From an uncultured Piscirickettsiaceae bacterium (GTDB taxonomy: Bacteria > Pseudomonadota > Gammaproteobacteria > Methylococcales > Cycloclasticaceae), in NCBI GenBank assembly GCA_913061075.1, contig CAJXSK010000004.1, positions 124,001 through 188,000 of the forward strand: DNA of 64,000 bases, written 5' to 3'. Under the pieces are notes generated by a model. The model was not told the DNA's origin and made no database searches. It saw only the letters and a program-made list of their open reading frames with translations. Below are positions 21,645 through 25,786 of the stretch, piece after piece (the stretch's first letter is position 1; each line of letters opens with the position of its first letter). The position numbers were made by a program, and so were the translations under genes.

Positions 21645-24600
21645 ATGAGCGCGATGTTGAAACCTAAAGATTTAAATTTACTAAAGCGTTTTATTCCGCT
21701 GAATACGCTGTCTGATGAGCAATTTGCACAATTAATTAGCGAGTTGGATATTGAGGAGGTTGAAAAAGGTGGTTTGGTATTTGATCAGGGTGATTTTACA
21801 AAAGAATTCATCTATTTAATCAGTGGAAGTATTGCGCTATATGCCGGCGAAATGGAAATGGAAGTCATCACCACGGGGTCAGAAGCGGCTAGATTCGCTA
21901 TCGCTCATCAATTGCCTCGTAAAGTAAAAGGCGCGGCTAAAACCAAGTCACGCATTGTTCGCGTACCCACCAACAAGTTAGATAAAGAAAAAAAACCTAA
22001 GCCGGCTGAGACCTACATGGTTGATGAGCAGGCTAGCCAAGGTGGTGATTGGATGGCAACGATGTTGCAATCCCCTGTATTTCAAAAACTGCCCGCTGCT
22101 AATTTGCAAAAAGTGATGATGAAAATGGAAGAGGTTGCTTTTGAGCCAGGTCAAATGGTTGTTAAGCAAGGTGATCCGGCAGATTATTACTATATTATCA
22201 AACAAGGTACTTGTGAGTTAACTAGGCAATCAGGAAAAGATTCAAAACCTATTAAATTGGCTGAACTGCATGACTGTGCGAGCTTTGGTGAAGATGCATT
22301 GCTATCTGATGCGCCACGTAATGTAACAGTCACAATGAAGGGCAACGGGCAATTGCTAAGATTGACTAAGGAAGATTTCATTACGTTGGTGAAAGAGCCT
22401 GTTTTGCAATATGTGGATTTCGATGAGGCAAGTGGAAAGGTACAAGAAGGCGCGGCGTGGTTAGATGTTCGTGATGCTGATATATATAAAGATGGGCATA
22501 TAGAAGAGAGTAACAATATTCCGTTCTTTTCGTTACGCATGAAAATCAGTGCGTTAAAGCATGATCAGTTGCAATTACTGGTTTGCGAAAACGGTAGAAC
22601 AAGTGAGGCAGCTGCCTTTTTATTGCTAAAGTTTGGTTTTAATGCGTTGATTTTAAAAGGTGGAATGGATGCAATTAAAACAATTAAAAAGAAGACAGAA
22701 AAAACGTCCAACGTAAACGTTACGCCATCAGAAAAAGAGCCGGTTATTCAGGCTGAGGTAACAGAATTACCATCGAAGGATGATTTGTTGGGGGAAGCGC
22801 AACATAAGATTAGTGAATTGGAAGCGCTTTGTGCGACTCTAAATGAAGAACAAAACCAAATTTCATTAGAGCGAGATGCGTTACAGAAAGATAAAAACTC
22901 ACACAATGAATTACTGGCCACATCTCAATCCACGTTGACGTTATATAAAGAGCAAATTGAAGCGTTGGAAAAAGCGCAGCTAAATTTGGGCAATGAATAT
23001 CAAGAAGTACTGAAAAAAACAGCCCAGGAAAAAAACAACCTTGAAGATCAACTAAAAGGTGCTCAAGAAAAGTTGGTTGCTCTGGAAAGAAATGTGCTTG
23101 AAGAAAACAATAGTAGCGAATTGTTGCAGCAACAACTTAAAGACCTAAATAACGAATTACAAACAAAAGACCAGGAGCTTGAAAAGCAATGTAAGGCGCT
23201 AAATATAGCTCAAAGCAAGTTAACTGATTCGGAGCAAGAGGTATCTAAACGCTTGGCCTTGCTAGAAAAAGAAAATCAACAACTTAATCTTGATAAAGAA
23301 AAGTTAGGTAAAGAGCGAGAGTTGGCTAATACGAATTTGAAAGCTCTTGAAGAAGAAAAGGTTGAATTTCAAAAAACGATTGAATTGCATGCCGAAACCA
23401 GTGGAACAGAAAATGCAGAACTGGTTGAAAAAGCCCAAACATTAGAATCTGAAAAAGCGGCGTTAGAACGCGAGGTTGTAGAAGCAAGGAGCTGTCAGGC
23501 ATCATTAAAGGAACAAGTTGATAGTTTAAGCAATGACTTAAAGAGCAAAGATGATGAAATTCAAAAGCAGTTTAATAACCTAGATAAGGTTCAAGTTGAA
23601 TTAGCCGAAGAAAAGCAAAAAACAGGTGACCGTTTGGAGTCGCTTGAAAAAGAAAATCGTCAACTTATTAATGATAAAACCTGGTTAGGTGATGAGTGTG
23701 AAGCTGTTAATAAGACGATGAGTGCGCTAAAAAGGGAAAATGCTGATCTACAAAAAAAGGTTGAATCACATAACGAATCAAAAGATGTAGAAAGCACGAA
23801 TTCGGCGAAAAGAATTGTTGAATTACAGTCTGAAAAGATGGCTCTTGAAGAGCGACTATTAGTTTTAGAGGAGCAGCTTAGTTCAGTTAATTCAGAAACT
23901 AGCAATTTAAACGATAAGCTTTCTGATGCTCATTCTTTACTTGATGAGCAATCAAATAAAAATAAAACATTATTGGTTACACTGGCCGAATATGAAAAGA
24001 AAACTGAAAAGAATAATGTTCTTCATGAAAAGCTGGATAAGCTTGAAGAGTCTCAGCGGTTGGATAATACAAAATTGTATGAGTTGTCTGGCAAAAATGA
24101 ATCGTTACAAGATAAGCTTGAAAGGGAGCGGCAACAACTCACGGAGGTTCAAGCCAAGCTAGATGAGTCTATAAATGAAGTCGGTCGATTAAAAAGCCAA
24201 AAATCATCGCAGTCTGACGAATCTGAAGATTATGCTAATCAGGTGGCTGAAGTTGAAAAGTTATCAAAAGAGCTAGCTAATGCTAAAGAAAATGAAGAGG
24301 CTGTTAGAGGTAGCTTTGACGAGCTAGGTGAACGGGTTGTTACGCTAGAAAAGCAATTAGACAAAGCTTATTCTGTAATTGAAACCGTTCAAGCTGATTT
24401 AGATAAAGAGCGTGGAGTTATTTCTGAATTAAATGTGCAGTTAAAGTCGGCCGAACAGTTGGCGCAAGATTCAAAAGGCACGATGGACATGTTAACTACT
24501 GAGAAACAATCAATGGAGGATGGTCTTAAGCAACAGTTGAATGATCTTAAGAACGAGCTTATTACAGAGCAAGAAGTTAGAAAAGTTGCAGCGAAAGGTT

Positions 24601-25358
24601 TATCTGATGTTGAGCTAAGTTCTGAAGCATTATCATCAACGGTTGATCGCCTAACTGAAGAGCTACAACAGGTAAAAGTTAGCAAGCAAGCGGATGTTGA
24701 ACGGATAAGGCAGCTTGAAAAAAGTCTACTTGAGAATGACCAAAAAAGTTCAGATGGGATCGGTAAAGTAGAAGCATTGGAGAGTGAGTTAGCTGACGAA
24801 AAATTAGCAAATGAAGAGAAAGTTCAACAATTAACGTTGTCTTTACAGTCATCACAAAAAGAGATGGGTGCCTTGTCATTAAAGCTAGATGAGCTATTGG
24901 ATGCTAAAACAAGGTTAGAAAATGAAAAAATCTCAATGGACCAAAAAGTTGCGTTGTATGAGCAAAACAAACAAGCATTAACAGACAATATTAAATCACT
25001 TGAAGAAAAGCTTTCAAAACCGGAAGAAAGCCAGGAAACATCGGAAAAAATTAAGTTATTGGAAGAGCAGCTTGATGAGGCTAAAACTGCCCTAGTGGAT
25101 ATGGAGATCAAGTTTGATAATATCGATGAAGAAACGAAGAGTGAAGGTGCTGAAGATAGCGAGTTATTAGCTGTCAAATCAGAATTGTTGTTGGTTCGAG
25201 AACAAACAGAAGGCGATATTGCTGCAATGAAAGAGATGTTGGACAATAGTAATAAAATGAATCTGGCATTGAAAAAAGAGCTATTATCTTTGCAGGCGGC
25301 TTCAAATGAAGCAAATTTACAAGAACCACAAAAAAAGAAAAAAGGGTTGTGGAGATAG
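21645..25358 (+). CDS. Giant cNMP-binding / rhodanese / coiled-coil protein
   Basis: A 1237-residue soluble protein. Residues 10-110 look like a first cyclic-nucleotide-binding fold (GLVFDQGDFTKEFIYLISG). Residues 140-255 form a better conserved second one whose phosphate-binding cassette is SFGEDALLSDAPRNVTV (213-229). Residues 262-345 are a rhodanese domain with active-site loop C314-ENGRTS. From about 380 to 1225 the sequence is an almost unbroken heptad-rich coiled coil of Glu, Lys, Leu and Gln, ending KKKKGLWR. No signal peptide or membrane segment is visible. The start is ATG 21645 (an ATG also follows at codon 4). It overlaps the Rieske gene by 10 bp, suggesting a functional pair. Role unknown: possibly a ligand-responsive scaffold. 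Confidence 0.85.
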   Translation: MSAMLKPKDLNLLKRFIPLNTLSDEQFAQLISELDIEEVEKGGLVFDQGDFTKEFIYLISGSIALYAGEMEMEVITTGSEAARFAIAHQLPRKVKGAAKTKSRIVRVPTNKLDKEKKPKPAETYMVDEQASQGGDWMATMLQSPVFQKLPAANLQKVMMKMEEVAFEPGQMVVKQGDPADYYYIIKQGTCELTRQSGKDSKPIKLAELHDCASFGEDALLSDAPRNVTVTMKGNGQLLRLTKEDFITLVKEPVLQYVDFDEASGKVQEGAAWLDVRDADIYKDGHIEESNNIPFFSLRMKISALKHDQLQLLVCENGRTSEAAAFLLLKFGFNALILKGGMDAIKTIKKKTEKTSNVNVTPSEKEPVIQAEVTELPSKDDLLGEAQHKISELEALCATLNEEQNQISLERDALQKDKNSHNELLATSQSTLTLYKEQIEALEKAQLNLGNEYQEVLKKTAQEKNNLEDQLKGAQEKLVALERNVLEENNSSELLQQQLKDLNNELQTKDQELEKQCKALNIAQSKLTDSEQEVSKRLALLEKENQQLNLDKEKLGKERELANTNLKALEEEKVEFQKTIELHAETSGTENAELVEKAQTLESEKAALEREVVEARSCQASLKEQVDSLSNDLKSKDDEIQKQFNNLDKVQVELAEEKQKTGDRLESLEKENRQLINDKTWLGDECEAVNKTMSALKRENADLQKKVESHNESKDVESTNSAKRIVELQSEKMALEERLLVLEEQLSSVNSETSNLNDKLSDAHSLLDEQSNKNKTLLVTLAEYEKKTEKNNVLHEKLDKLEESQRLDNTKLYELSGKNESLQDKLERERQQLTEVQAKLDESINEVGRLKSQKSSQSDESEDYANQVAEVEKLSKELANAKENEEAVRGSFDELGERVVTLEKQLDKAYSVIETVQADLDKERGVISELNVQLKSAEQLAQDSKGTMDMLTTEKQSMEDGLKQQLNDLKNELITEQEVRKVAAKGLSDVELSSEALSSTVDRLTEELQQVKVSKQADVERIRQLEKSLLENDQKSSDGIGKVEALESELADEKLANEEKVQQLTLSLQSSQKEMGALSLKLDELLDAKTRLENEKISMDQKVALYEQNKQALTDNIKSLEEKLSKPEESQETSEKIKLLEEQLDEAKTALVDMEIKFDNIDEETKSEGAEDSELLAVKSELLLVREQTEGDIAAMKEMLDNSNKMNLALKKELLSLQAASNEANLQEPQKKKKGLWR

Positions 25359-25726
25359 ATACAGTTATAGATCAGGGTGCGGAGTTTTTTTTAGCAGGTG
25401 ATGTTTTTGACTTGGATGTTATGGCCTCTAGAGCATTTTGTGTCGAGGTGGGAGATAATCAGCTCGAAGGTTTTTTTGTTCGAGCGGAAAACGGCGATTT
25501 ATTTGCCTATAAGAATAGTTGTCCGCATACGGGCGCGCCTCTTAACTGGACGCCTGATCAGTTTTTAACATCATCGGGTCGTTATATTCAATGTTCTATT
25601 CATGGTGCAATGTTTAAGCTTGAGTCGGGGGAATGTTTTGCGGGGCCGTGTTCGGGAAAATTTTTACAAGCAATGAAGGTGGTTGAGCGCGAAGGACAGG
25701 CTTTTGTCGGAGCTGAAAGCTTATAG
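25349..25726 (+). CDS. Small Rieske-type [2Fe-2S] protein
   Basis: A 125-residue protein with a complete Rieske cluster motif: C-P-H (CPHTGAPLNW, about residues 56-65) and, about 18 residues later, C-S-I-H (CSIHGAMFKLESG). This gives the C-x-H...C-x2-H ligand set. It has no transmembrane anchor or signal peptide, so it is a soluble ferredoxin-like Rieske such as those feeding dioxygenases or nitrite reductases. The start is GTG at 25349, inside the last codons of the preceding gene (10 bp overlap), so expression is translationally coupled to it. No oxygenase gene is nearby. It is followed by a strong terminator. Confidence 0.88.
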   Translation: MEIDTVIDQGAEFFLAGDVFDLDVMASRAFCVEVGDNQLEGFFVRAENGDLFAYKNSCPHTGAPLNWTPDQFLTSSGRYIQCSIHGAMFKLESGECFAGPCSGKFLQAMKVVEREGQAFVGAESL

Positions 25727-25744: not shown

Positions 25745-25786
25745 AATCATAAAAAAACCCGTCTATTGACGGGTTTTTTTATGATT
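25745..25786. terminator. Bidirectional rho-independent terminator
   Basis: A near-perfect inverted repeat: AACCCGTC pairs with GACGGGTT across a 4-base loop, flanked by seven A on the left and seven T on the right, with further pairing outward (AATCAT/ATGATT). It serves both the plus-strand cNMP-Rieske operon and the minus-strand rpmB-rpmG operon, which converge here. Confidence 0.93.

Follow-up and report, generated by a model that had tools for sequence, protein, structure and literature searches.

The window described here is a 64,000-nucleotide stretch of a 2.26-Mb Cycloclasticus genome, and the element under study is a pair of overlapping genes within it. The first is an ATG-initiated open reading frame (ORF) for a 1237-residue protein, referred to below as the sensor protein, in which two cyclic-nucleotide-binding (CNB) domains and a single-domain rhodanese precede a long coiled coil; the second encodes a 125-residue Rieske [2Fe-2S] protein. 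We think it reasonably probable that the sensor protein is a receptor scaffold resembling the regulatory subunit of PKA, that it controls a persulfide-carrying rhodanese, and that the Rieske protein is a frequent redox partner. The receptor in this reading has good support. What we infer beyond it comprises the sulfur and redox output, the identity of the ligand, dimerization, electron transfer, allosteric control of the rhodanese, a redox role for the Rieske protein, and recruitment of a partner by the end of the coil.

The CNB-CNB-rhodanese core

The sequence-only reading of this DNA that preceded our analysis had proposed two cyclic-nucleotide folds, one of them with a conserved phosphate cassette, and the Pfam scan agrees, with two stretches matching cNMP_binding (PF00027; 8.9e-24, 83.7 bits against a cut-off of 27.5). 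The cassette of the second domain, CNB2, reads FGEDALLSDAPRNVTV; an alignment of 46 homologs shows G215 and E216 without exception, R225 is kept in 91–94% of homologs, and the spacing from Glu to Arg is the same as in PKA. Judged as a functional-type G-E...P-R cassette, CNB2 qualifies (FGEDALLSDAPRN, with the invariant GE), whereas CNB1, which has no GE, does not. CNB1 is degenerate: its Glu is absent, a family-specific conserved A[RK]FAxAHxxPRK stands in its place, and the domain is predicted as a β-roll by AlphaFold2 (AF2).

PKG and PKA regulatory subunits rank first for the tandem CNBs by both profile and fold, and CNB2 aligns with PKG I CNB-B and PKA RI-alpha CNB-A with VIA-align Z scores of 19.0 and 18.8, respectively. 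The sensor protein has in common with these best-matching proteins the tandem CNBs and, in CNB2, an F-G-E-x-A-L-x4-P-R cassette with equal spacing. It differs in that it is bacterial, that its CNB1 lacks the Glu, that its ligand binding is a prediction, and that a rhodanese and a coil take the place of a kinase or dimerization/docking domain. With one cassette degenerate (CNB1) and no kinase domain in the protein, we do not file it as a member of the PKA/PKG regulatory subunits and suggest by analogy that it may work like one. The sensor protein quite probably binds a cyclic nucleotide, as the co-occurrence of the core with cyclases (see below) indirectly suggests.

The rhodanese, predicted by the sequence-only reading to have a complete active-site loop at C314, was likewise recovered by Pfam (PF00581; 7.4e-12, residues 262–345, 46 bits against a cut-off of 22.2), and its catalytic-Cys loop, C314-E-N-G-R-T-S, fits the CxxGx[TS] pattern. 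Among the Rieske-linked proteins compared, none of 23 has lost the Cys; among the others, 61 of 73 retain it. The rhodanese domain of the Shewanella persulfide reductase aligns with that of the sensor protein with a VIA-align Z of 17.8–18.1; for the rhodaneses of the NADH-dependent persulfide reductase (Npsr) and CoADR-RHD taken together, the fold superimposes with an rmsd of 1.2–1.6 Å over 96–100 residues (Z about 17.4–18.1) at 26–27% identity, with a six-residue loop of the CxxGxT/S type. Unlike these enzymes, the sensor protein has no flavoprotein reductase part, its rhodanese is joined to CNBs, and its possible redox partner is a Rieske protein rather than a flavin. These persulfide-binding domains are among the closest rhodanese structures, and the likeness in fold suggests that the sensor rhodanese is a persulfide carrier.

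To map the distribution of the core we sampled 276 gammaproteobacterial genomes, each at least 90% complete, and called presence at E<=1e-40. The core occurs in 125 of them (about 45%), often in two to six copies, and its carriage tracks nucleotide cyclases: a class I or III cyclase is encoded by 123 of the 125 core-positive genomes versus 62 of the 151 core-negative genomes. With one genome per family the counts are 67 of 68 and 32 of 73, respectively (p about 4e-14), and the association persists separately within Rieske-positive and Rieske-negative genomes. The window genome itself encodes the class I enzyme CyaA; a class III cyclase was searched for in this genome and not found. Genes that encode the core alone have among their neighbors CyaA (L224), a CHASE2-cyclase (L230), and CHASE2-protein kinases (L226, L227; locus and family numbers are our own). 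Seven core-only genes adjoin glnK (P-II) and/or amtB, with aroE on the other side in most (L072, L074, L075, L218, L220, L222, L223), which suggests a link with nitrogen status.

The sequence-only reading had further suggested a scaffold that senses a nucleotide or a sulfur species. The CNB2 cassette and the tracking of cyclases speak strongly for the nucleotide half; sensing of a sulfur species was unsupported by any test. In the mechanism that we propose, cAMP (or cGMP) would be read at CNB2 of the PKA-regulatory-subunit-type tandem, and CNB1, having lost its ribose-binding glutamate, would probably be structural or bind something else. The ligand state would be relayed over a linker of ~10 residues to the rhodanese, where C314 would carry a persulfide or dock a partner. 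The bacterial cAMP effectors known so far are mostly Crp-type transcription factors; a tandem-CNB receptor of this abundance, nearly always found with a cyclase, would, if the reading is true, constitute a large unstudied branch of cyclic-nucleotide signaling, with a sulfur-transfer domain as its fixed partner.

Several observations on the core weigh against this reading. N226 occupies the position held by Ala in PKA and Thr in PKG, and the choice of ligand is therefore not readable from the sequence. The AF2 model of the sensor protein has a predicted TM-score (pTM) of 0.57 and therefore does not give the domain orientation. The rhodanese Cys is substituted in some homologs (L108–L110, L113, L114), so that catalysis is not essential everywhere. 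Finally, the cyclase counts are unadjusted for genome size, which may drive part of the association, and part of the cyclase signal would be common to Crp, which many of these genomes encode.

The coiled coil and the regions behind the core

Behind the core, residues about 360–1190 form about 850 residues of heptad coiled coil, rich in Glu, Leu, Lys, Ser, and Gln, with 0.6% Pro and 2.4% Gly. Across residues 361–1237, 40 of 59 windows have a 3.5-residue hydrophobic periodicity above that of shuffled sequences (p<0.05); in the core, 1 of 22 does. The long coiled coil of the sequence-only reading is thus a heptad coil by the periodicity test and not an unstructured linker, but it is not of one length: intact Cycloclasticus copies of the protein span 1102–1513 residues, with coil length varying by species. 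Within the genus, identity is about 70% in the core, 13–26% in the middle of the coil, and 46–55% in the last ~90 residues; conservation in the coil is confined to its last ~120 residues and a basic-aromatic tail, KKKKGLWR in the window protein and usually KKK[GS]WWK. The rod is therefore free in length and constrained at both ends. We propose that the coil would dimerize the sensor protein and set its reach, and that its conserved C-terminal end would recruit a partner or the membrane.

An alternative is that the CNBs do not respond to ligand and, like the rhodanese, serve as inactive docking folds on a structural rod of a cytoskeleton-like or envelope-tethering kind. The lost CNB1 cassette, the 12 substituted Cys among the 73 unlinked homologs, and a variable length that suits a rod are consistent with this notion, as are weak matches of the coil to the Crescentin rod (PF19220; 17.3 bits against a cut-off of 100) and to SMC (TIGR02168; 48 bits against 567, in the coil region only), both of which we attribute to generic coiled-coil similarity and reject as relationships. 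It is nevertheless unlikely, since the GE of CNB2 is invariant in all homologs examined, carriage of the core tracks cyclases, and core-only proteins, which have no rod, are common.

The family is defined by its N-terminal 345 residues, the CNB-CNB-rhodanese core; 61 relatives with this core come from nearly every family of the order. What lies behind the core is interchangeable across the family. Proteins of 342–390 residues with nothing behind the core occur in Legionellales and many others; a short coil brings the protein to about 450 residues in family f8; families f3 and f4 have a transmembrane-like end and f6 has acidic tails. At L168, L170–L172, and L181 the coil measures about 450 residues and the genes often come in pairs, tandem or divergent, which encode CNB-CNB-rhodanese proteins of ~800 residues with a common C-terminal motif of the type HDQxLLxxLAxxL. 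The long coil is found in Cycloclasticus and f2. At L070, L071, L147–L149, L151–L163 in part, L165, L184, and L185, the long coil is followed by a C-terminal FGE-sulfatase fold, which is absent from the window protein. Catalytic FGE activity of this domain is unlikely, as it has no Cys in the segment following RGG(S/A/G), the one in which the active-site cysteines of catalytic FGE lie. A single FGE-sulfatase domain is encoded by the window genome, in a 716-residue frame elsewhere on the same contig (L216, G000:C4:17891–18655). Among plasmids, the search for relatives recovered nothing beyond single-CNB matches with 24–34% identity. In the family tree, several core-only rows were mis-extracted and form long branches (e.g., L145, L130, L126, L141), and the tree serves for coarse grouping only, with Rieske neighbors scored by profile-based distances.

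The Rieske protein and its linkage to the sensor gene

The GTG-initiated second gene of the pair encodes a Rieske protein by Pfam (PF00355; 1.1e-11, 44.9 bits against a cut-off of 20.3), with invariant CxH and CxxH ligands. The ligand pairs, C58-P-H60 and C82-x-x-H85, are separated by a 21-residue spacer with the motif TGxPL[DN]WxPxxF. A further pair of cysteines, C96 and C101, lies in GxCxxGPCxG; it is invariant in 18 sequences and present in most unlinked relatives. The AF2 model (pLDDT, the predicted local distance difference test score, 89.6) has the usual Rieske ferredoxin fold. The protein remains under the cut-offs of the NirD and dioxygenase-ferredoxin models (TIGR02378, 25.0 versus 74.65 bits; NF042948, 24.3 versus 150 bits), and the spacer and the extra Cys pair appear to be absent from the descriptions of the NCBIfam models that match weakly. 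The extra cysteines mark a widespread, apparently uncharacterized Rieske subfamily.

Cycloclasticus is a hydrocarbon degrader, and the Rieske protein could in principle be one of the ferredoxins of its ring-hydroxylating dioxygenases, the gene pair then being part of aromatic degradation. The model does resemble the soluble ferredoxins CarAc, BphA3, and NDO-F in fold and in the C-x-H/C-x-x-H ligands; it differs from them in the spacer, in the extra Cys pair, and in having no oxygenase neighbor. The sensor gene is flanked by degQ (divergent) and rpmG (convergent), a position common to the whole genus and, in part, to other families of the order for genes with the same core; the conserved neighborhood consists of degQ/moaB/pepN and rpmG/radC/coaBC, with no oxygenases. 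We reject an origin in aromatic degradation on this gene neighborhood, and the scores, which fall far short of the cut-offs that NCBIfam sets for HcaC and further dioxygenase ferredoxins, together with the presence of the same Rieske family, extra Cys pair included, in 103 of the 276 genomes, also make it highly improbable.

The two ORFs overlap by 10 nucleotides (25349–25358), the Rieske start preceding the end of the sensor stop codon, which bears out the earlier statement that the Rieske protein is translated from inside the end of the sensor gene. Ten Cycloclasticus loci are intact at the 3′ end, and in each of them the Rieske match begins 9 to 15 nucleotides ahead of the point where the sensor gene ends. 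The W-(K/R)-stop that closes the sensor gene dictates the start, GTG-GA(A/G)-AT(A/G); conservation of V-E-[IM] throughout the genus makes GTG the likely, though not proved, Rieske start. A terminator-like hairpin follows the Rieske gene, and a pattern scan found no promoter-like site on the plus strand inside the sensor gene ahead of the Rieske gene; the two genes therefore probably form one transcription unit, the hairpin being its probable terminator.

Linkage of the two genes was also observed beyond the genus. They overlap at L089 (f2, another family of the order), L071, and L231, and are linked directly or with one gene between them at L148, L149, L151, L152, L154, L155, L159, L162, and others. 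The linkage recurs in about ten families besides that of Cycloclasticus. A core gene and a Rieske gene lie within 9 kb in 15 of the sampled genomes versus 0.4 expected by random placement. Linkage was found for 11 of 21 long forms versus 3 of 33 core-only forms.

The sensor protein could still be a cyclic-nucleotide receptor and the Rieske protein a functionally unrelated general ferredoxin, with the coupling serving expression level only. The overlaps, the excess of linked genomes, and the preference for long-tailed forms argue against this, and a number of other observations favor it and correspondingly detract from the Rieske part of our reading. Most sensor homologs have no Rieske neighbor. 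The Rieske family lies mostly away from the core in the genomes that carry it, often paired there with a gene for a PfkB sugar kinase, which we take to resemble ketohexokinase, and with no CNB gene. In the tree, linked Rieske proteins are interspersed among unlinked ones (14 changes versus 18.8 in shuffles), and neither group is a clade of its own. Two Cycloclasticus genomes, one of them 99% complete (L239) and the other at L240, keep the Rieske gene without the sensor gene, with orf139 followed directly by the Rieske gene. At the genome level, the association of the main Rieske family with the core is marginal once cyclase presence is considered (p 0.04–0.05). We regard an unrelated Rieske protein as a serious if somewhat doubtful alternative, and a functional link of the sensor protein with the Rieske protein as plausible but tentative.

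Of the earlier proposal that the scaffold acts with an iron-sulfur carrier, what stands is an overlap fixed in Cycloclasticus and a recurrent linkage; against it are the unlinked majority of homologs and L239 and L240. The sequence-only reading was to be given up if homologs lacked the Rieske neighbor and the coil proved a variable or unstructured linker; many homologs do lack the neighbor and the coil is variable in length, but it is a genuine heptad coil. In the receptor-scaffold reading that we prefer, the Rieske protein, a general gammaproteobacterial protein, would be made by coupled translation from the same transcript in Cycloclasticus and several other lineages and would probably be a redox partner of the sensor assembly, frequent but not obligatory. 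A fuller version, in which the sensor protein is the bacterial equivalent of a PKA regulatory subunit and stands for a class of cAMP effectors that is widespread and not yet described, cAMP gates the rhodanese persulfide, the co-translated Rieske protein supplies reducing equivalents, and cAMP thereby controls sulfane-sulfur chemistry directly, without transcription, is quite improbable.

The intervals at the two Rieske-only loci, L239 (G015:C217, 5470–6412) and L240 (G002:C91, 3565–4807), are apparent natural deletions of the sensor gene, with assembly error possible; a further Cycloclasticus genome, G016 (98% complete), has neither gene. The PfkB-Rieske pair is conserved at L200, L205, L207/L237, L238, and L232, often with no CNB gene nearby; it lies behind adk in L237 and L238, and both genes read as one frame in L232.

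Features of the locus and related assemblies

Features of the sensor-Rieske locus, in window coordinates
Feature	Position	Strand	Basis
CNB-CNB-rhodanese-coiled-coil protein, 1237 aa	21645..25358	+	ORF; Pfam; orthologs between degQ and rpmG in genus and order
CNB1, residues about 18–112, degenerate cassette with conserved A-R-F-A-x-A-H-x-x-P-R-K	21696..21980	+	Second cNMP_binding stretch; conservation; AF2 β-roll
CNB2, residues about 146–250, canonical fold	22080..22394	+	Pfam residues 164–250; VIA-align
CNB2 phosphate-binding cassette FGEDALLSDAPRNVTV, E216, R225	22284..22331	+	Residue conservation
Rhodanese domain, residues 262–345	22428..22679	+	Pfam 7.4e-12; VIA-align
Rhodanese active-site loop C314-E-N-G-R-T-S	22584..22604	+	Sequence; Cys in 84/96 homologs compared
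Long coiled coil, residues about 360–1190, weakly conserved, variable length	22722..25214	+	Heptad periodicity
Conserved C-terminal coil end and basic-aromatic tail KKKKGLWR	25095..25355	+	Identity within Cycloclasticus
Rieske [2Fe-2S] protein, 125 aa, GTG start	25349..25726	+	ORF; Pfam; overlap conservation
Rieske ligands C58-P-H60, C82-x-x-H85, 21-residue spacer TGxPL[DN]WxPxxF	25520..25603	+	Invariant in alignment
Extra invariant Rieske cysteines C96, C101 in GxCxxGPCxG	25634..25651	+	Invariant in 18 sequences
Hairpin CCCGTC-TATT-GACGGG-T7 3′ of the Rieske gene	25752..25784	+	Direct sequence reading; not listed by pattern scan

No description of a CNB-rhodanese-coil architecture was found in the open-access literature, in keeping with the earlier remark that no described system of this layout was known; subscription journals may hold one. 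The nearest theme is that of the encapsulins: in Family 2B, a cNMP-binding domain (PF00027) is fused to the capsid, and rhodaneses are often present in Family 2A operons with cysteine desulfurase (PMC8346489). The sensor protein is reminiscent of Family 2B in that a cNMP-binding domain is joined to a protein assembly. It differs in carrying CNB and rhodanese in one chain, in having no HK97 capsid domain (the HK97-fold capsid family was absent from the Pfam scan of the sensor protein), and in having no operon in common.

Two further arrangements were observed around Rieske genes of other genomes. At L233 (2346–5374), near a contig end, the Rieske gene adjoins two DsrC/TusE-like sulfur-carrier genes and a 606-residue coil ORF. 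At L146, L148, L154, L155, and L232, a conserved gene of opposite orientation lies downstream of the Rieske gene; its protein of ~170 residues starts with MRRRLYFLLP and has glycine-rich hydrophobic segments.

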